This document shows positions 20,553 to 39,415 of a DNA stretch of 64,000 nt, piece after piece. A program made the position numbers and the translations under genes. Below the pieces are notes generated by a model that saw only the letters and a list, made by a program, of their open reading frames with translations, did no database searches and had not been told where the DNA came from. The DNA is from Geothermobacter ehrlichii (lineage in GTDB: Bacteria; Desulfobacterota; Desulfuromonadia; Desulfuromonadales; Geothermobacteraceae). Numbering within the stretch: position 1 is the first letter of the stretch; each line of letters opens with the position of its first letter. The stretch lies in NCBI RefSeq assembly GCF_008124615.1, contig NZ_VNIB01000007.1, positions 115,001-179,000 on the forward strand, given 5' to 3'.

Positions 20553-20567
20553 GCTCGAAGCTTAAAA

Positions 20568-23078
20568 CCGGCGGGTCGCGCCCCGCCAGGCGCCTTACTT
20601 TTTTCAACGCGAAAAAAGTAAGCAAAAACGCTGGGCTTTATGGCAGTCGCCAAGGCCTGTGGGCCTCTTCAACGCTGCCGCCAAACAAGCTGGCATCTTC
20701 TTCGTGGCAGCAGAAAAGGCATCGTTCCCGGGCTCGCTGCGCTCGCACGGGCCAGTTTGTTCGGAGGTGCCCCAACGGAAGGCACAACCGTTCCCGTCGG
20801 GGCCGCGGCGGTGCAACCTGGCCCATCGAGCGGCCTGCCGCTTGTTGGGAAAGCCTTTCTGCCGGCCCGAAGAGCCGGCGTTCCGGGTTGAGCCGACGTT
20901 GTAATGACCCACCGAACCCGCGCAACAGCAATGCCCGCCGCAGGCGAAGGGCCCTTTTCTGCGTCCTCTTTTGGGCCGGCAAAAGAGGACGGCGTCGTCC
21001 GGGGACGCAACCCCGGATCTACGTCCATCGACCGCAAGGTCGCAAGCAAAATCAAAAGCAAAACCGGCGGGTCGCGCCCCGCCAGGCGCCTTACTTTTTT
21101 CAACGCGAAAAAAGTAAGCAAAAACGCTTGTTTTTATTTCTGCCACGAAGGTCTGTGGCCCTTTTCAACCAGTTGCCCAGACAGACCGCCCTTTCTCCGT
21201 GACCACAAAAAAGCATCGTTCCCGGGCTCGCTGCGCTCACACGGGCCAAACGGTTCAGAGCTGCCTCGACGGAAACGGCTGTTCGATACAGGAACGTCCC
21301 CGTTGTGGCTGCGGCGGTACAACCTGGCCCATCGAGCGGTCTGCCGCTCGTTGGGAAAGCCTTTCCTGTTGGCCCGAAGAGCTGAAGCTCTTTTGACGGG
21401 ACAAACGAACCTTTGCCCTACCGAACCCACGCAACAGCAATGCCCGCCGCAGGCGTAAGGCCCTTTTCTGCGTCCTCTTTTGGGCCAGCAAAAGAGGACG
21501 GCGTCGTCCGGGGGCGCAACCCCGGATCGACATCCTTCGACCGCAAGGTCGCAAGCAAAATCAAAAGCAAAACCGGCGGGTCGCGCCCCGCCAGGCGCCT
21601 TACTTTTTTCAACGCGAAAAAAGTAAGCAAAAACGCTGGGCTTTATGGCAGTCGCCAAGGCCTGTGGGCCTCTTCAACGCTGCCGCCAAACAAGCCGGCA
21701 TCTTCTTCGCGGCAGCAGAAAAAGCATCGTTCCCGGGCTCGCTGCGCTCGCACGGGCCAGTTTGTTCGGAGCTGCCCCATGTGTGCCGCTTGTCTCAACA
21801 ACAAACGTTCCCGTCGGGGCTGAGGCGGTACGATCTGGCCCATCGAGCGGTCTGCCGCTCGTTGGGAAGCTTTTCCTGTTAGCCCGAAGCACCGACGCTT
21901 CTTTGATGGGACAAACGGAACCTCGACCCACCGAACCTTTGCGACAGCAATGCCCGCCGCAGGCGAAAGCTCTTTCTGCTTACTCTTTGGAGCGCCAAAG
22001 AGTAAGGCGTCGTCCGGGGACGCAACCCCGGATCTACGCACATCGACCGCAAGGTCGCAAACCATCAAAAGCAAAACCGGCGGGTCGCGCCCCGCCAGGC
22101 GCCTTACTTTTTTCAGCGCGAAAAAAGTAAGCAAAAACGCTTGTTTCTATTTCTGCCACGAAGGTCTGTGGCCCTTTTCAACCAGTTGCCCAAACAGACC
22201 GCCCTTTCTCCGTGACCACAAAAAAAGCATCGTTCCCGGGCTCGCTGCGCTCGCACGGCCAGTTTGTTCGGAGGTGCCCCAACGGAAACGCCCGTCCTGG
22301 CACAACCGTTCCCGTCGGGGCCGCGACGGTGCGGCCCGGCCCATCGAGCGGTTTGCCGCTCGTTGGGATGCTTTTCCTGCCGGCCCGGAGCACCGACGCT
22401 ACTTGGTGGGTCCGAGCCTTGCCTCGACCCACCGAACCTTTGCGACAGCAATGCCCGCCGCAGGCATAAGGCCCTTTTCTGCGTCCTCTTTTGGGCCAGC
22501 AAAAGAGGACGGCGTCGTCCGGGGGCGCAACCCCGGATCGACATTCATCCGACCGCAAGGTCGCAAGCAAAATCAAAAGCAAAACCGGCGGGTCGCGCCC
22601 CGCCAGGCGCCTTACTTTTTTCAACGCGAAAAAAGTAAGCAAAAACGCTGGGCTTTATGGCAGTCGCCAAGGCCTGTGGGCCTCTTCAACGCTGCCGCCA
22701 AACAAGCCGGCATCTTCTTCGCGGCAGCAGAAAAAGCATCGTTCCCGGGCTCGCTGCGCTCACACGGGCCAAACGGTTCAGAGCTGCCTCGACGGAAACG
22801 GCTGTTCGATACAGGAACGTCCCCGTTGAGGCTGCGTCGGTGCAACCTGGCCCAACGAGCGGCCTGCCGCTCGTTGGGAAGCTTTTCCTGTTAGCCCGAA
22901 GCACCGACGCTTCTTTGATGGGACAAACGGCACCTCGACCCATCGAACCTTGGCGATTGCAATGCCCGCCGCAGGCTAAGCTCTTTCTGCTTACTCTTTG
23001 GAGTGCCAAAGAGTAAGGCGTCGTCCGGGGACGCAACCCCGGATCTACGCACATCGCCCGAAGGGCAAAATTCAAAAC
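20568..23078. repeat. array of five tandem ~505-bp units alternating between two types
   Basis: The anchor CCGGCGGGTCGCGCCCCGCC recurs at 20568, 21064, 21573, 22077 and 22585 (periods 496, 509, 504, 508). Each unit is a chain of hairpins: GGCGGG/CCCGCC, TTACTTTTTT/AAAAAAGTAA, a CCGGGCTCGCTGCGCTCG block, a CGAGCGG/CCGCTCG block, and near the end CGTCCTCTTTTG/CAAAAGAGGACG (or a CTCTTTGG/CCAAAGAG version), TCCGGGG/CCCCGGA and CGACC/GGTCG. Units 1, 3 and 5 carry a CTGGGCTTTATGGCAGTCGC segment; units 2 and 4 instead carry a GCTTGTTTCTATTTCTGCC-type segment. Short stretches between the hairpins differ in every unit. Open frames here are Arg/Ser/Pro-rich, overlap on both strands and repeat with the DNA, so I do not call them genes. 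Confidence 0.9.
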
Positions 23079-25131: not shown

Positions 25132-25361
25132 AGGGTGCTTGGCGCCGGGTGCCGGGTTTTTCCTGGCCCTGACGCCCGACACCCGCCTTTCTCCCAGTAC
25201 CTGACGCCCGACCCCCGCCTTTCTCCCAGTACCTGACGCCCGACCCCCGCCTTTCTCCCAACACCTGACGCCCGACACCAAGTGCACGCCTCTACCCTGG
25301 CACCCACCTCTTTGCGCTAAATCTTCCGGCCACTTGCACCGATGAAAGACAGGAGGGACCG
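25132..25361. repeat. gap with 32-bp tandem repeats
   Basis: Three full copies of a 32-bp unit (CTGACGCCCGACMCCCGCCT and TTTCTCCCARYAC) run from 25169 to 25264, with a partial fourth to about 25279. They are preceded by GGCGCCGGGTGCCGGG. Related GGTGCC/GGGCGCC-rich strings recur at about 30715-30790, 32983-33005 and 38848-38875. No gene seen. Confidence 0.8.
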
Positions 25362-26105: not shown

Positions 26106-26683
26106 GCCGGAAATACCGCCGCCGCAATTTCTTCATCAACAAAGAACTGCAGGGCCGTTTCATCTTCCGCTATTTCATCCTCAGCTTCGCCGGGGTCATG
26201 TTTTTCGCCCTGGCCTTCAGCTACCTCTCGCAGGACAACCTGACCATCGCCTACGATGGCGAACAGCTGCGGATCGGCGCCACGCCCATGATCCTGCTGC
26301 GGGAGATGGTCGAGGCCCACTGGTTCTTCCTGGTCACCGCCGGCGTCTTCATCGCCGTGTTTTCCATGTTCGTCACCCATCGCATCGCCGGTCCCCTCTT
26401 CCGCTTCGAAAAGACCTTCGAGGCGATGAGCAACCGCGATTTCAGCTGGAACGTGGTGCTGCGGGCCAAGGACGAGGCCAAACAGACCGCCGCCAAGCTC
26501 AACATCGTCAACGACGTCATCAGCAACGATCTGCGGGACATTCTGCGCCGCAGCGAAACCCTTGAACAGCTTCTGGAGGAGATGCAGGAGGGCGGCCCGG
26601 CCGACGGCGAACTGCTGCGGCGGGCAAGAGAGGAGAACCAAGTCATTCTCGAACTGCTGCGAGGATACCGCTTCCGATCCTGA
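26102..26683 (+). CDS. HAMP-like membrane protein (truncated sensor-type)
   Basis: 193 residues with two transmembrane segments (about 22-42 and 72-95) around a short periplasmic loop, then THRIAGPLFRFEKTFEAMSNRDFSWNVVLRAKDEAKQTAAKLN, which looks like a HAMP linker, and a C-terminal helix rich in Glu/Leu. There is no kinase or methyl-accepting output domain. The start overlaps the stop of the SurA-like gene. Its last 26 codons lie in the first copy of a 149-bp tandem duplication that also carries the start of the following peptidase gene. Function unknown; it probably works with its neighbour in the envelope. Confidence 0.65.
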   Translation: MSRKYRRRNFFINKELQGRFIFRYFILSFAGVMFFALAFSYLSQDNLTIAYDGEQLRIGATPMILLREMVEAHWFFLVTAGVFIAVFSMFVTHRIAGPLFRFEKTFEAMSNRDFSWNVVLRAKDEAKQTAAKLNIVNDVISNDLRDILRRSETLEQLLEEMQEGGPADGELLRRAREENQVILELLRGYRFRS

Positions 26684-26902
26684 TAGCCATGCACCCTGCC
26701 CACATCCTTTCCGTGACGCTCCTGTCCAAAGTGCTCGCGTTGATACCGGCCGGCGGCGAACTGCTGCGGCGGGCAAGAGAGGAGAACCAAGTCATTCTCG
26801 AACTGCTGCGAGGATACCGCTTCCGATCCTGATAGCCATGCACCCTGCCCACATCCTTTCCGTGGCGCTCCTGTCCGGAGTGCTCGCGGCGATACCGGCC
26901 GC
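26606..26902. repeat. 149-bp tandem duplication
   Basis: GGCGAACTGCTGCGGCGGGC begins at 26606 and again at 26755; the two copies run on with few differences to about 26754 and 26902. Each contains the 3' end of the HAMP-like gene and the start of the signal-peptide/peptidase gene. Confidence 0.9.
26689..26832 (+). pseudogene. hybrid 47-codon frame made by the duplication
   Basis: An ATG copy of the peptidase start begins a diverged signal-peptide-like stretch (MHPAHILSVTLLSKVLALIP). It then reads in frame into a second copy of the end of the HAMP-like gene (ELLRRAREENQVILELLR, ending RFRS). It is a by-product of the 149-bp duplication; differences from the downstream copy in the hydrophobic part suggest it has drifted. 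It could in principle yield a short exported or membrane peptide. Confidence 0.6.
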
Positions 26903-27359
26903 CGGCGCGGAAATCCGTTCCCGGCAGGCCAGCCTGGTCTACGACCGGCCCGAGCAGCTGCGCCAGTTCAACAGCAGGGTGCGCCTGTCCGGCGGTTTCT
27001 TCTCTTTCGGATCGGGAAGCGGGCAGATCGACAGGGATGTCAGCAACAAACTCGACCGATTCGCCTCCCTGGTACAGACGATCCTCGACATGCGGCCGGA
27101 CAACTTTCGCTACCGGGTGGTGCTGCTCGACAGCGCCGAAGACGTCGACCGCGTCTACCAGCAGCAGTACGGCATGAAACGCGACTTCATCGCCTTCTTT
27201 TCCCCCAAGACCGACACCATCTACATCTCCACCGCCGACGTCGACCGCAACGTCTTCGCCCACGAACTGGCCCACGCGGTGATTCACCACTACTTTCACC
27301 GCGCCCCGCCGACCAAGATTCACGAGCTGCTGGCGCAGTATGTGGAAAGCCAGATTTGA
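26838..27359 (+). CDS. exported putative zinc metallopeptidase (HEXXH)
   Basis: 173 residues. An N-terminal signal peptide (MHPAHILSVALLSGVLAA, cleavage probably after AAGA) precedes a mature domain with KTDTIYISTADVDRNVFAHELAHAVIHHYF. HELAH is the HEXXH zinc motif, and a Glu further on (HELLAQYVES) may be the third ligand as in gluzincins. The domain is short, as in minimal peptidase families. The start at the ATG at 26838 is inside the second copy of the 149-bp duplication. It follows the SurA-like and HAMP-like genes, which suggests an envelope-quality-control cluster. Confidence 0.75.
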   Translation: MHPAHILSVALLSGVLAAIPAAGAEIRSRQASLVYDRPEQLRQFNSRVRLSGGFFSFGSGSGQIDRDVSNKLDRFASLVQTILDMRPDNFRYRVVLLDSAEDVDRVYQQQYGMKRDFIAFFSPKTDTIYISTADVDRNVFAHELAHAVIHHYFHRAPPTKIHELLAQYVESQI

Positions 27360-33989: not shown

Positions 33990-34356
33990 TGACGGGTGAC
34001 AGGCAGCAGGAATCTTTTGCCGTTGTTCCCTGCCCATTCACTGTCGTGCCAATTAATTTATTGTCCACGTCCATCCGCGACTAAAAACCAAAACCTTTCA
34101 AACCGCCGATGACGCCGATGCACGCCGATTGAAAACCAAAACCTTTATGATTTTTCAGGTTCTACGATTTCATCCGCGTCCATCCGCGTCCATCCGCGGC
34201 TAAACCAAAGATTTTTCTAACCGCCGATCACGCCGATGCACGCCGATTGAAAACCAAAACCTTTATGATTTTTCAGGTTCTATGATTTCATCTGCGTCCA
34301 TCAGCGGCTGACACCAGAGATTTTTCTGCCGCAGATTACGCGGATTCACACTGATT
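33990..34356. repeat. two full 10-bp-periodic repeat units with partial copies
   Basis: CCGCCGATGACGCCGATGCA starts near 34103 and a second CCGCCGAT near 34221 (118 bp apart). Each is followed by GAAAACCAAAACCTTTATGA, then ATTTTTCAGGTTCTAYGATT and a TCCATCCGCG/TCATCTGCG triplet arm. An ACAAGTGACGGGTGACAG string near 33985 recurs in inverted form near 41860. No gene seen in this gap. Confidence 0.8.
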
Positions 34357-35682
34357 CTACATCACCGCCGTCAGGTTCAGATAGGCGGCATTGTTGTCGT
34401 AATCGAAGGTGTCGAAATTCGAGTCGCGCTGCTCGAAGGCATACCCGAAGCTGACGTTGAGCCATTTACGCACGTTCCAGCCGACGCCCAGGCCGCACCG
34501 CAGGTAGTCGTCATCGCGAAAACCGGTCTGGCCGCCGATGGTGATCTGGTCATTGTACTCGTCGCGCAGCCACGACAGGTCCAGCTTCAGACTGGTCTTG
34601 GCGGTCATCTTCCACAGGTAGCCGAGAGAGACGAAATCCGACAGCCGGTCGTCGGTACCTGAGATGTCCGATTCGTTGGTCTGCCGGGTCACCGCCAGGT
34701 TCAGCGACGATTTCGGGGTCAGCTGGTGGCTCAGCTGAAGCTCGCCGATGAACTCGTCCTTGTCGTCGGAACTGCGGTGGTCGAACTTCTTCTGCCCGTA
34801 GCCCGCCTTGACCATGCCGCGCGATTTCGCCGTCAGCTGCCAGCTCAGGCCGGCGAAGTAATGATGCTCCTCGCTGTCGTCCTGGATCTCCCGGTCATAG
34901 CGGATGTCGATATACTCGTACTGGACGAACAGCCTTGTTTTCGGCGTCAGCCGGTAGCCCAGCGCCAGACCACCCTTCAGGTCGTCGCGATCGCGAAAGG
35001 CGTTGCGGGCGTCGTCGTAATCGAGGGCGTAATAGCCGACTTCCAGCCGCAGATCGGTGCGGGGACCGATTTCCCAGGTCACCAGGTCGTTCAGGGTCAG
35101 GGCGGTATAGTCGTCGGTCTGCGGCAACTGGTTGACACCGGTGCTGTAGGGATCGTGGGTATCATCGTAGACCGCCAGCAGGTTCATCCCCAGCCCGCCG
35201 CGCAGGTTGACATCGAGCATCGCCTCGCCGCGCTGGATGGTCTCTTCCTGGTCGCTGAAGTTTTCGTTGCGGTAGAAATCGGCACTGTACCCGCCATACA
35301 GCTGGAAGCGCCGGCCGGTATCCTGCCGGAAACGGGTCAGCGGCATGCCGCCGGGCGTGGTGTTCAGGGTGGTGGTCTTTTCCGGCGCCTGCTTCATCGC
35401 CGGAAAGGCGCCCCAGATGCCGGGAGTGACCACCGTCACCCACTCGTCCTCTTCATTGTCCGGCGTATTGAAGAAATTGTCGGTGTAGATCTGGCCGACC
35501 GAAAGATAGGGGTGCACATAGCCGGTGCGGCCGCCGAAGACGTCACCGGCGCTCTGCGCCTCGAAACGCGGGCCGGCAAGATACCCGCCCGGCGGCGCGA
35601 CCGTCTCATCCGCGGCCGGTCCGGCCACGGGCAACAGACACAGAACGAGCCCGGCAAGGGCCAAAAAACGTTTCATCGACAA
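34357..35682 (-). CDS. outer-membrane beta-barrel protein of the exopolysaccharide locus
   Basis: 441 residues. A signal peptide (MKRFLALAGLVLCLLPVAGPA) starts at the second Met. The rest is a succession of amphipathic strands with Tyr/Asp-rich turns (VHPYLSVGQIYTDNFFNTP, LTPKTRLFVQYEYIDIRYD, LNVSFGYAFEQRDSNF) ending in a hydrophobic C-terminal strand (AAYLNLTAVM). This resembles the BBP2/OMP_b-brl families found beside wza-wzc in deltaproteobacteria. It may form the outer-membrane exit for the polymer, which would complement the short Wza; that role is inferred from context only. Confidence 0.75.
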   Translation of the reverse strand: MSMKRFLALAGLVLCLLPVAGPAADETVAPPGGYLAGPRFEAQSAGDVFGGRTGYVHPYLSVGQIYTDNFFNTPDNEEDEWVTVVTPGIWGAFPAMKQAPEKTTTLNTTPGGMPLTRFRQDTGRRFQLYGGYSADFYRNENFSDQEETIQRGEAMLDVNLRGGLGMNLLAVYDDTHDPYSTGVNQLPQTDDYTALTLNDLVTWEIGPRTDLRLEVGYYALDYDDARNAFRDRDDLKGGLALGYRLTPKTRLFVQYEYIDIRYDREIQDDSEEHHYFAGLSWQLTAKSRGMVKAGYGQKKFDHRSSDDKDEFIGELQLSHQLTPKSSLNLAVTRQTNESDISGTDDRLSDFVSLGYLWKMTAKTSLKLDLSWLRDEYNDQITIGGQTGFRDDDYLRCGLGVGWNVRKWLNVSFGYAFEQRDSNFDTFDYDNNAAYLNLTAVM

Positions 35683-36128
35683 ACCTCCACCCTAAGCACA
35701 CGGCGCCTGAGACACTAGCAGGCCGTTGAAAAACGCCCATCTGCCCCATAAACGCCTTTGATTTTTTCCACCCCCCAAAACCGTACAGGACGCTGATACA
35801 CGCTGATTTAAATCTAAAACAGAATTCCTGCCTTTACCCTATCTGCTGCGTTCATCTGCGTCCACCCGCGGTAAAAACCAAAACCTTTCAAACCGCCGAT
35901 TGCGCCGATGCACGCAGATTGAAAACCAAAACTTTTATGATTTTTCAGACCCTACGATTTCATCCGCGTTCATCTGCGGCCATCTGCGTCCATCTGCGGC
36001 TAAACCAAAGATTTTTCTAACCGCCGATTGCGCCGATACACGCCGATTGAAAACCAAAACTTTTATGATTTTTCAGACCCTACGATTTCATCCGCGTTCA
36101 TCTGCGGCCAAAAACCAAAAATTTTCTT
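35683..36128. repeat. 10-bp-periodic repeat units and a MITE-like half-site
   Basis: AGGCCGTTGAAAAACGC near 35719 resembles one end of the MITE-like element at 3301. From about 35780 there are at least two full units (CCGCCGATTGCGCCGAT near 35893 and 36021, about 128 bp apart) with their triplet CATCTGCG arms. No gene seen. Confidence 0.8.
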
Positions 36129-36635
36129 TTATTGCACCGCCGACGGGCTCACCGTCGAGACGCCGCGACCGCCACCGCCGATGGTCGCCGGCGTGGCCAC
36201 CGGCGCGCCTCCGGTCCCGCCGGTACCGACGGTACCGGCGGGACCGGAGGTGTAACCGAGACCGGCAAGCTCCTCCTGCCCCACGACCCTGGCCACCACC
36301 TGCGGATCGCAGCCGGCGTCCATGGCGACGCGGGCGATGACATTGTTGTCGACCCGCGCCTTCTGCAAGGCGGCCAACACCGCCTCCTCGGCATAACCCA
36401 GCTCACGGGCCACCACCAGCACGCCGCAGAGATTGGGACCGATCTTGATCGCCTCGGCCACCATCGTCTCCAGCGGCTTGCCGGCCTTTTCCCCAGCCTC
36501 GAACACCGTCTTCACCACCGGCCGCACGTCGCTGGCGCAGTCGGTTCCGTTGGTCGCGGCTTTCTCTCCCGTGTCGGCGGCAAAGGCCGGCACGACCAGG
36601 CCCAGCAGCAGGATCATGGTCAGGATTCGTTTCAT
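36129..36635 (-). CDS. small secreted protein with Gly/Pro/Thr-rich tail
   Basis: 168 residues from the ATG at 36635 (an in-frame start 24 bp upstream is possible). A signal peptide (MKRILTMILLLGLVVPAFA) is cut probably after AFA. The mature region of about 100 residues is helical with three Cys (DCASDV, NLCGVLV, AGCDPQ). A low-complexity tail (GPAGTVGTGGTGGAPVATP) follows. I do not recognise the family. It sits between the WecA-like and beta-barrel genes, so a periplasmic or surface role in polysaccharide secretion is plausible but unproven. Confidence 0.65.
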   Translation of the reverse strand: MKRILTMILLLGLVVPAFAADTGEKAATNGTDCASDVRPVVKTVFEAGEKAGKPLETMVAEAIKIGPNLCGVLVVARELGYAEEAVLAALQKARVDNNVIARVAMDAGCDPQVVARVVGQEELAGLGYTSGPAGTVGTGGTGGAPVATPATIGGGGRGVSTVSPSAVQ

Positions 36636-36659
36636 CGCTCTGTCTCCCCAGGTGAACAT

Positions 36660-37032
36660 TGGTTTGAATGTAAGACCGAACTCTTCCAGATGTTATCCGC
36701 GTCATCCGCGGTTAAAAACTAAAAGCATTTCAGCCGCCGATTGCGCCGATGCACGCCGATTGAAAACCCAAAATCTTCATGATTTTCAGGTTCTATGATT
36801 TTATCCGCGTTCATCTGCGTCCATCTGCGGCTAAAACCAAAGCATTTCAAACCGCCGATTGCGCCGATGCACGCCGATTGAAAACCCAAAATCTTCATGA
36901 TTTTTAGGTTCTATGATTTTATCCGCGTTCATCTGCGTCCATCTGCGGCTAAAACCAAAACCTTTCAAACCGCCGATTGCGCCGATGCACGCCGATTGTC
37001 CTTGGTCCTTAACCGCTTCGTGCTTCGCGAGC
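36660..37032. repeat. three 118-bp repeat units in tandem
   Basis: CCGCCGATTGCGCCGATGCA starts near 36734, 36852 and 36970, spaced exactly 118 bp. Each full unit is a left arm (GCCGATTGC/GCCGATGCAC/GCCGATTGAA, 10-bp steps), an AT-rich loop (AAAATCTTCATGATTTT...) and a right arm (ATCCGCGTTC/ATCTGCGTCC/ATCTGCGGCT). No gene seen. Confidence 0.9.
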
Positions 37033-38700
37033 TTACCCCAGCCCGCGGACGACGACAATCACCAGCGCCGCCAGCATGGCGCCGCAAACCTGGTTGGCAT
37101 AGCTGCGGGCGCTGATGGCGACAATCTTCAGGGCCAGAAAGAGCAGCACCGCCTTGCCGACGATCCAGGGCAGATTGTAGGCCAGGGTCACCTCGGGCGA
37201 AACGATCACCAGCGACAGACTCATGGCCAGGATCAGAAAATCGAACGGCGTCGACAGGTAGATTTCCTGCGGGCGCTTGAAGATGATCTTCACGACCACC
37301 AGCGGCGCCATCAACCCGTAAAGGATCAGGCCGGCCCGGGCGACATCCAGCTCGCCGACGATCCTGTGTCCGCCGGCCTGTTCCAGCAGGACGATCAGCA
37401 CCAGCCCGGCCAGGTAGAGAAACCCGTGAAAGAAATGGTTTCCCGGATCACGGGTCAGCCAGACCAGCACCGCCCCGGAACCGACAACCGCCAGGGCGAA
37501 AATGGCCTCCTGGGTCGACGCCCGGCCGCCAGCCAGCACCGCCAGCAGCAACAGCAACCCGACCAGCGCCTTGAGACCGTTGACCGCCAGATCGGCCAGG
37601 TCCTGCATCCGGCGATAGGCGGCGGTCTGCTTCAGGCCCGCCTGGGAATCGCGCTGCAGCAGCGGAAACCGATCCCGATGGCGCAGCACGAACCTCAACG
37701 CCAGATAGAAAAGGCCCGAAACGGCGAGATAACCTGCCAGCAGCAGATACTCCGGCTGCTCGTGCAGCTGCAGCGCACAGACCGCCCCGAACAGGGAGAG
37801 CCCGTAGATGATCAGCACGGTAAAGCGATGCTGCACTCCCAAGTCGAGAAACTTGTGGTGCAGATGCGTCCGGTCGGCGACAAAAGGGCTGCCGCCACAC
37901 AACATCCGCTGGGTCATCACCCAGACCGTGTCGATGATCGGCACCCCCAGCACCAGTACCGGCACCATGGGGCTGATACTCTGTCCCGGATTCTGCGTCA
38001 GCTGGATGGCGAGAAAACCGAGCAGAAAACCGACCAGCAGGCTGCCCACGTCTCCCATGAAGATGCGGGCCGGATAGACGTTGTACTTGAGAAAACCGAG
38101 CACGCCGCCGAGCAGCGCGGCGCACAGGATCATGCATTCGCCGCTGCCGGCGTGCAGATCAAGCACGAAAAAGGTCGCCAGGGCGATCACCGTCACGCCC
38201 CCCGCCAGACCGTCCAGGCCGTCGATCAGGTTGACGGCATTGATCATGCCGACCACGGCGAACACCGTGAACGGAATCGCCAGCCACAGCGGCAGCACGA
38301 TCTCGCCGAAACCGAACAGGTCGCCGAGATTGCTCAGGTAGAGATCACCGACCGTCATGGTGACCAGGCAGGCGAGAATCTGCCCGGCGAACTTGCGGCC
38401 GGGGGACAGGCCGACCAGGTCGTCGGCCAGGCCGGTGACGAAGATGATCAGGCCGCCGGCCATCAGGGCCCGTACCTGCAGATTGAACTCCTTGAACATC
38501 AGCATGGCAAAGAGAAAGGCGAGAAAGATGGCGACACCGCCCAGCCGCGGCGTGGCCTGGCTGTGCACCTTCCGCTCCTCGTCCGGCAGATCGAGACTTC
38601 CCGTTCCCAGCGCCCACCTGCGCAACGCCGGCACGGCAAGCAGGGCTGCGAAAAGCGCCGTCAGAAAAATGTAGAAGCTCAACATCAGTTGCGGCCGCAT
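37033..38700 (-). CDS. WecA/MraY-family undecaprenyl-phosphate glycosyl-1-phosphate transferase with extended C-terminus
   Basis: 555-residue polytopic inner-membrane enzyme that loads a sugar-1-phosphate (commonly GlcNAc-1-P) onto undecaprenyl phosphate, starting glycan repeat-unit synthesis. Conserved loops: KVHSQATPRLGGVAIFLAF, the catalytic NAVNLIDGLDGLAGG, YPARIFMGDVGSLLVGF and the HIHH-type DRTHLHHKFLDLG. The transferase core ends near residue 340. The following 200 residues add about six more hydrophobic segments absent from WecA. It probably initiates the exopolysaccharide made by this locus. Confidence 0.9.
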   Translation of the reverse strand: MRPQLMLSFYIFLTALFAALLAVPALRRWALGTGSLDLPDEERKVHSQATPRLGGVAIFLAFLFAMLMFKEFNLQVRALMAGGLIIFVTGLADDLVGLSPGRKFAGQILACLVTMTVGDLYLSNLGDLFGFGEIVLPLWLAIPFTVFAVVGMINAVNLIDGLDGLAGGVTVIALATFFVLDLHAGSGECMILCAALLGGVLGFLKYNVYPARIFMGDVGSLLVGFLLGFLAIQLTQNPGQSISPMVPVLVLGVPIIDTVWVMTQRMLCGGSPFVADRTHLHHKFLDLGVQHRFTVLIIYGLSLFGAVCALQLHEQPEYLLLAGYLAVSGLFYLALRFVLRHRDRFPLLQRDSQAGLKQTAAYRRMQDLADLAVNGLKALVGLLLLLAVLAGGRASTQEAIFALAVVGSGAVLVWLTRDPGNHFFHGFLYLAGLVLIVLLEQAGGHRIVGELDVARAGLILYGLMAPLVVVKIIFKRPQEIYLSTPFDFLILAMSLSLVIVSPEVTLAYNLPWIVGKAVLLFLALKIVAISARSYANQVCGAMLAALVIVVVRGLG

Positions 38701-39415
38701 GCCTATCCCCCCCCCTCAAAAGCCTGTGGCCATCCATTGCCAGACAGATTTTTCAATCAGCAGAGTTGAAAGTATAGCCCTGCGATCTCAAAAAAATCTC
38801 AAATTTTCCCGCAAATCCGAAAAAAAATGAAAAAAAGAAGGGGGCTGGAGGGTGGGTGCCGGGTGCCTGGTGCCGCTTTTTAAAAATCATCTGCGTTCAT
38901 CTGCGTTCATCTGCGGCTGAACCAAAGATTTTTCAAACCGCCGATCACGCCGATGAACGCAGATTTGCAAACTAAAATCCCTATGATTTTCAGGCTTTAA
39001 GCCTTATCCGCGTCCATCTGCGTTCATCTGCGGCTAAAATCAAAGATTTTCTCAACCGCCGATCACGCCAATGCACGCCGATTGAAAACCCAAAATCTTC
39101 ATGATTTTTCAGACCCTACGATTTCATCCGCGTCCATCCGCGTTCATCTGCGGTTAAAATCAAAGATTTTTCTCAACCGCCGATTGCGCCGATGCACGCC
39201 GATTGAAAACCCAGAATCTTCATGATTTTTCAGGTTCTATGATTTTATCCGCGTCCATCTGCGTTCATCTGCGGCTAAAACCAAAGCATTTCAACCGCCG
39301 ATTGCGCCGATGCACGCCGATTGAAAACCCAAAATCTTCATGATTTTTCAGGTTCTACGATTTTATCCGCGTTCTTCTGCGGCCATCCGTGGCTAAAACA
39401 CAAGATTTCGCACTT
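38701..39415. repeat. 715-bp gap filled by four to five repeat units
   Basis: Left arms (CCGCCGATCACGCC or CCGCCGATTGCGCC) start near 38938, 39056, 39177 and 39295 (118-121 bp apart), each followed by the AT-rich loop and the CATCTGCG triplet arm. A partial right arm is near 38885. A GGTGCCGGGTGCCTGGTGCC string lies near 38855. No gene seen. Confidence 0.9.

Follow-up and report, generated by a model that had tools for sequence, protein, structure and literature searches.

An array of structured units in Geothermobacter ehrlichii consists of copies of an unnamed intergenic repeat found in many bacterial phyla

We analysed a stretch of 64,000 nucleotides from the genome of Geothermobacter ehrlichii (the window; positions 115,001 to 179,000 of contig NZ_VNIB01000007.1). 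Between positions 20567 and 23070, it contains an array of five tandem units. These are copies of an unnamed, non-coding, intergenic repeat that is found in many bacterial phyla. The fuller reading, to which we give about even weight, is that the five copies of this widespread repeat act as folded single-stranded DNA and that their segments are shuffled by recombination.

Results

Anatomy of the units

The five units are 487–509 bp long and start at positions 20567, 21063, 21572, 22076, and 22584 (lengths of 496, 509, 504, 508, and about 487 nt). All five keep the same chain of hairpins: a GC hairpin, a TTACTTTTTT hairpin, CCCGGGCTCGCTGCGCTC.CACGGG, CCCATCGAGCGG..CCGCTCGTTGGG, a GTCCTC or TTACTC hairpin, and CCGGGG..CCCCGG. 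The original prediction of five tandem units of about 505 bp with fixed hairpins therefore describes something real, and our confidence in the anatomy of the units is high. When one unit was folded as DNA, its stability was above that of dinucleotide shuffles on both strands (z of -4.3 and -3.1). The features are listed below in window coordinates; each unit is assigned the orientation of its core hairpin (minus strand).

20567..21062, minus strand: unit A1, 496 nt, segment code a a a a a
21063..21571, minus strand: unit A2, 509 nt
21572..22075, minus strand: unit A3, 504 nt
22076..22583, minus strand: unit A4, 508 nt
22584..23070, minus strand: unit A5, the last, about 487 nt
20568..20636, minus strand: core-side end module of A1, with pseudoknot 1 and its T-rich third strand, then pseudoknot 2 (covariance model and pairing tests)
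21064-21132, 21573-21641, 22077-22145, and 22585-22653, minus strand: core-side end modules of A2-A5 (covariance model)
20632..20726: variable segment V1 of A1 (versions a and b alternate in A1-A5)
20727..20748, minus strand: core hairpin of A1, whose tip has the local form GAGCGCAGCGAG (as read on this strand)
21221-21242, 21732-21753, 22235-22256, and 22744-22765, minus strand: core hairpins of A2-A5
20822..20849, strand not assigned: H4 hairpin of A1, CCCATCGAGCGG..CCGCTTGTTGGG
Starts at 21328, 21839, 22340, and 22851: H4 hairpins of A2-A5
20948..21018, plus strand: distal end module of A1, inverted
21457..21527, plus strand: distal end module of A2
21965..22033, plus strand: distal end module of A3, TTACTC version
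22468..22538, plus strand: distal end module of A4
22976..23044, plus strand: distal end module of A5, TTACTC version

None of the open reading frames of the array matched Pfam, no reading frame is conserved, and the spacing of the units is not divisible by three. We dismissed a protein-coding repeat on these grounds, and the earlier view that the units are not selected as protein holds.

The window contains other repeats as well. At 34064-39408, there are tandem repeats with a unit of about 118 bp that contain CATCCGCGTCCATCTGCGG and AAAACCAAAACC; pieces of them border arrays C and D of contig C7 (L022). Near coding sequence, at 26597-26907 and 25168-25279, a 149-bp stretch is duplicated in tandem (95% identity) and a 32-bp repeat occurs in 3.5 copies.

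The units are recombination mosaics

We extracted the copies genome-wide and found about 25 units at about ten sites in this genome (3.24 Mb in 33 contigs). The other sites are distributed over several contigs: C7 has two more arrays at its end, C15 has four sites, and C13 and C17 have pairs; damaged single copies lie on C4 and C3. Because the ends of C7 and C15 have 47 nt inside a unit in common, one array probably bridges these two contigs.

We cut the 21 full units into segments between fixed landmarks and grouped the segments into versions at 90% identity. This gave 9 versions of V1, 12 of V2, and 12 of V3, while hairpins H2 and H6 have two versions each. Segments are 92–97% identical within a version and about 70% identical between versions, and their lengths are nearly constant. 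For every pair of segments tested, the combinations of versions were as numerous as in shuffled data, which implies that segments are exchanged freely between units. With high confidence, then, the units are a mosaic of freely reassorting segment versions, which bears out the suggestion of repeated recombination. In units E3 and B2, the left arm of one hairpin version is joined to the right arm of another, so a crossover occurred inside a hairpin and was not purged. (Within this one genome, covariation in V1-V3 is too thin for folding these segments.)

The original prediction also stressed that one segment alternates strictly between two versions. V1 does run a-b-a-b-a from A1 to A5, but the alternation carries no message: with three a copies and two b copies, strict alternation has a probability of 1/10, and the other segments come in other orders (a-b-c-d-b for V2, a-b-c-d-c for V3, and a-a-b-a-b for H6). 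Strict alternation is absent from all other arrays of the genome.

The ends can form pseudoknots that fit a triple helix

We defined the end module by comparing copies from this genome and from three relatives in the same family. An element carries the module at both ends, in inverted orientation. It starts with a short arm (S1) and a T-rich linker; hairpin A, a linker of 5–7 nt, and hairpin B follow. Nearly every copy has a hairpin A loop complementary to S1 and a hairpin B loop complementary to the linker before it. In the distal module of A1, for example, the first part has the third strand GGGCCCTTTTCT and the hairpin GTCCTCTTTT/AAAAGAGGAC, whose loop is complementary to an upstream GGCCC; the second part has the CCGGGG hairpin, whose loop is complementary to an upstream GCGT.

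Across 145 modules from many genomes, we compared the longest complementary run with that of permuted loops (300 permutations, which ignore the relatedness of the module copies). The longest run averaged 3.97 for knot 1, against 2.89 (sd 0.06) for permuted loops, and 3.24 for knot 2, against 2.50 (sd 0.08); none of the 300 permutations reached either value. Crossed control pairings in these 145 modules were not raised above permutation. We have good confidence that each module contains two consecutive H-type pseudoknots.

The T-rich linker and the purine arm of hairpin A are parallel, and they match in register. In 41 of 70 distinct modules (rho 0.82), as many Ts precede the first C as As precede the first G, against a mean of 14.8 and a maximum of 27 in shuffles that ignore relatedness. 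Among the modules with both letters, the position of the C equals that of the G in 35 of 49 (shuffle mean 12.6, maximum 23). The linker thus covaries with the purine arm as T.A-T and C.G-C base triples would, and a pyrimidine triple helix on the pseudoknot stem fits this covariation well. The register test was run after, and in place of, a comparison of mirrored and direct matches between linker L1 and the 5' arm, which gave 27 versus 20 among distinct copies (not significant). The topology of S1, U-rich loop 1, and S2 is that of RNA triple-helix pseudoknots, and a triple helix on a pseudoknot stem is known from telomerase RNA. Covariation in the stems had been proposed as a check; compensatory change is present in stems, knots, and triples, and together with the two pseudoknots and the triple helix it supports selection on structure.

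The repeat is widespread

With a covariance model, we found the module in 119 of the order's 136 genomes, where it often occurs in tandem. The core hairpin lies about 50–90 nt from one module. In related elements, it has a variable stem and the tip CTGTCTGAGCGNAGCGAGTTT; this genome has a shorter form, on the minus strand. A scan of species genomes for exact matches to the tip gave at least 120 stretches, where about two are expected by chance (by our own arithmetic). The matches listed include isolates of Ralstonia, Polaromonas, Thioalkalivibrio, Sphingobacterium, Selenomonas, Hungatella, Blautia, and Clostridium and MAGs labelled Thermotoga and Nitrospirae; Bacteroidota, Firmicutes, and Nitrospirae are among their phyla. 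A matching stem surrounds the tip in most of the listed matches.

A module lies within 700 nt of 31 of 88 listed tips. In 28 of these cases, it is on the same strand and 3' of the tip, mostly 47–84 nt away. By an independent structural rule, a knot-1 module lies 3' of the tip in 17 of 78 listed tips, against 0.2 expected; these include Bacteroidota and a Thermotoga MAG, with the arm CTTGAC and the loop GTCAAG or close forms. In the Firmicutes matches, the tip hairpin was seen and the module was not visible. We have high confidence in the wide distribution of the element. The suggestion that such hairpins recur across proteobacterial genomes was right, and their reach goes beyond the proteobacteria.

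Some copies have unusual surroundings. In four Firmicutes loci (L158, L182, L187, and L205), the tip sits inside a nested hairpin of about 250 nt with no visible end module, and this hairpin keeps the internal-loop words GCGTTA / TTTTAGC, CTTGG, and CGAAAC. At about 1400-1480 of L091 (genome G043), a longer hairpin, capped by a GAAA loop, takes the place of the GC-GNA-GC end of the core tip. In two near-complete genomes, the best-scoring modules cluster in one region of 55–80 kb (G112, C1:1322-1402 kb; G113, C1:347-402 kb; L117-L125).

The tip occurs in 0 of 2.9 million viral contigs, and we rejected a phage origin on that basis. The array had no matches in phage and plasmid records. For the Ralstonia element, only three replicons among the plasmid records matched, of 1.1–2.5 Mb, so spread by plasmids was rejected as well.

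Copies come and go beside unrelated genes

We compared two genomes that are about 95% identical (G003 and G004) by searching for two element loci in the other genome. Both loci are polymorphic, so elements were gained or lost at each: G004 lacks the element at L029 (its flanks there are 44 bp apart), and G003 lacks the element at L036. The locus L040/L038 is conserved. The missing pieces at the L029 and L036 flanks sit between copies of another dispersed repeat of about 140 bp (GTCGAGACGTGCGTA..GCAGCAGATGCGTGCGTATCGGCCGCCC), so loss by recombination between these copies and insertion are equally likely. The polymorphic copies, which lie between these repeats, showed no clean target-site duplication.

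The array separates a symporter operon from a DUF294 gene, which the original prediction regarded as its likely partner. The link of the array with this pair is not conserved. In three relatives from the same family, the element is absent upstream of DUF294, and the gap between the symporter and DUF294 is other sequence or short. The array is therefore not a conserved regulator of the pair, and the two genes appear to be bystanders. Elsewhere, the arrays lie beside unrelated genes (radical SAM, GDP-mannose pyrophosphorylase, AMP-binding enzyme, aminotransferase, chemoreceptor, and two-partner secretion). We count both the differences between sister species and the unrelated neighbours in favor of the fuller reading.

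Selection on the pairing in DNA or in RNA

If pairing were selected in RNA, then G.U pairs should be far more common than A.C mismatches. Among about 2,800 pairs of the elements, we counted 46 G.T and 29 A.C (34 versus 23 in 111 distinct core stems, and 12 versus 6 in module stems). The excess of G.T over 1:1 is near significance (p 0.06), and some selection at the RNA level may be compatible with it. In the tRNA stems of the same loci, used as a control, the counts were 12 and 0, and the difference from the elements is significant (Fisher p 0.007). Even in RNA, the triple helix would make hairpin A avoid G.U, but nothing of the kind applies to the core stems. The strands of the neighboring genes show no arrangement that fits a leader or 5' UTR, a 3' UTR, or a terminator, and we rejected a UTR or terminator role for this reason. 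The near-equal counts and this arrangement lead us to prefer folded single-stranded DNA, and we have moderate confidence that pairing is selected in DNA more than in RNA. The structure had been suggested to act as RNA or as single-stranded DNA; of the two, the counts favor DNA.

A structured non-coding RNA, with transcribed units, a telomerase-like triple-helix pseudoknot module, and a tip that serves as a protein or metabolite site, is nevertheless an explanation to weigh, if an unlikely one. The shared topology, the covarying triples and knots, the hypervariable stems with a conserved tip, and the longer tip with a GAAA loop in the relative at L091 would all suit it. It fits poorly with the pair counts set against the tRNAs, with the neighboring strands, with the high turnover of the elements, and with the broken hairpins that E3 and B2 retain after recombination. 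Rfam release 15 had no family at the gathering threshold, with sub-threshold miRNA matches only.

The units might instead organise the chromosome in the manner of BIMEs: their folded or bent DNA, arranged in arrays, would be bound by gyrase, IHF, or another nucleoid protein or would act as a barrier to replication forks. Intergenic, chromosomal, tandem, and mosaic arrays beside unrelated genes, with no matches in phages and nearly none on plasmids, speak for this. Covariation of pseudoknots and triples needs a single strand, whereas simple protein sites in duplex DNA do not, and positions are not conserved between sister species, so we consider this quite improbable. Relative to replication, the strand of the element shows no visible bias (8 versus 7 in 15 copies, by our own assignment, with few strict tip matches in complete genomes). 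This weighs against the fuller reading, as do the missing target-site duplication and the absence of an associated transposase or recombinase.

Candidate movers

Elements with inverted, folded ends recall REPINs moved by RAYT (Y1) transposases, and Y1 transposases are present in 116 of the 136 genomes of the order, with six in this genome. The end module, however, was found within about 1.5 kb of none of 20 Y1-transposase loci (mostly RAYT-sized), several of which are surrounded by different, shorter palindromes of their own, and the module consensus has no constant tetranucleotide of the GTAG type. By these two features, RAYT-gene flanking and GTAG next to a palindrome of 20–40 nt, the element is not a REPIN; mobilisation by RAYT was rejected, and we regard a REPIN-like origin as very unlikely. 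Palindromes of the form GGGGACAGGCACC..GGAGCCAGTCCCC lie between tandem elements in G002, and they also cluster at a RAYT-type locus of G067 (L046 and L285).

Among the open reading frames within several kb of 80 tip loci, we found no recombinase cluster, only housekeeping families, so an autonomous parent with its own recombinase was rejected. No transposase or recombinase was found to be associated with the elements. They might be mobilised in trans; our confidence in this is weak. Neutral tandem duplication of decayed, functionless sequence could give mosaics and turnover, but it is highly improbable, because stems, knots, and triples show compensatory change and the tip has been conserved across phyla.

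Comparison with known repeats

Among described repeats, the intrastrand triplex repeats of bacteria come closest. BoxC, PIT, and TM_ECO are multicopy, intergenic repeats that form a single-strand triplex and are linked to unstable regions of the genome (Holder et al. 2015, PMC4666352). In class IV motifs, the strand order is Hoogsteen, pyrimidine, purine, with three stems of 6–15 nt and loops of 1–6 nt; TM_ECO belongs to class II, is G/C-rich, and spans about 36 nt, with the consensus CCCTCNCCCN3-6GGGNGAGGGN3GGGNGAGGG (PMC4666352). Like these repeats, the element is multicopy intergenic DNA in which a single strand can fold with a Hoogsteen strand beside a hairpin. The module has the class IV order (Hoogsteen T/C, pyrimidine, and purine strands, matching as T.A-T and C.G-C in the register test), with stems of 5–8 nt and a pyrimidine-purine loop that is often 8 nt unless the closing G-C pair is counted. 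The TM_ECO consensus is not visible in the units. Unlike TM_ECO, the element combines a core hairpin with paired, inverted modules, each with a pseudoknot stem and a second pseudoknot, over a length of about 300–570 bp.

REPINs or REP elements with RAYT (PMC3116915, PMC2817692) and GTAG/CGTC repeats (PMC3733652) are likewise palindromic, intergenic, paired in inverted orientation, and apparently non-autonomous. In contrast to REPINs, our units are about 10 times longer, have two hairpins per end with knots and triples, and have neither a GTAG tag nor a link to RAYT. Integron attC sites act as a folded single strand with hypervariable stems and few conserved positions. The element resembles them in these respects, but no integrase was seen nearby, there are no cassette genes, and it has a conserved tip instead of R/L boxes.

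Uncharacterised multicopy nucleotide sequences are described in Geobacter and Pelobacter (PMC2700814, PMC3543383). As described there, these are also intergenic and come from related bacteria. Queries of the open-licence literature with the tip and stem strings returned nothing relevant. It is possible that the element was sighted earlier under another name.

Discussion

We infer that the elements are non-autonomous repeats that fold as single-stranded DNA. The structure would act on the lagging-strand template, during repair, or as the target of an enzyme, supplied in trans, that processes single-stranded DNA. Folded ends that are recognised, or that stall the replication fork, could then cause the elements to be copied, duplicated in tandem, and deleted; their segments would then be shuffled by homologous recombination between units. 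Tentatively, and with rather less than even weight, we propose that these are an undescribed family of structured single-stranded DNA elements, present in many phyla and only on chromosomes, with a conserved tip and triple-helix pseudoknot ends, and read by a putative, widely conserved factor.

If this is right, then one unnamed repeat architecture accounts for the TTACTTTT-type hairpins that are scattered through many bacterial genomes, and the modules provide sequence evidence for a covarying triple-helix pseudoknot that is seemingly selected in DNA. The simple tip motif would offer a way to find further copies and the factor that reads them. In Geothermobacter ehrlichii, the array shows how such repeats recombine segment by segment.
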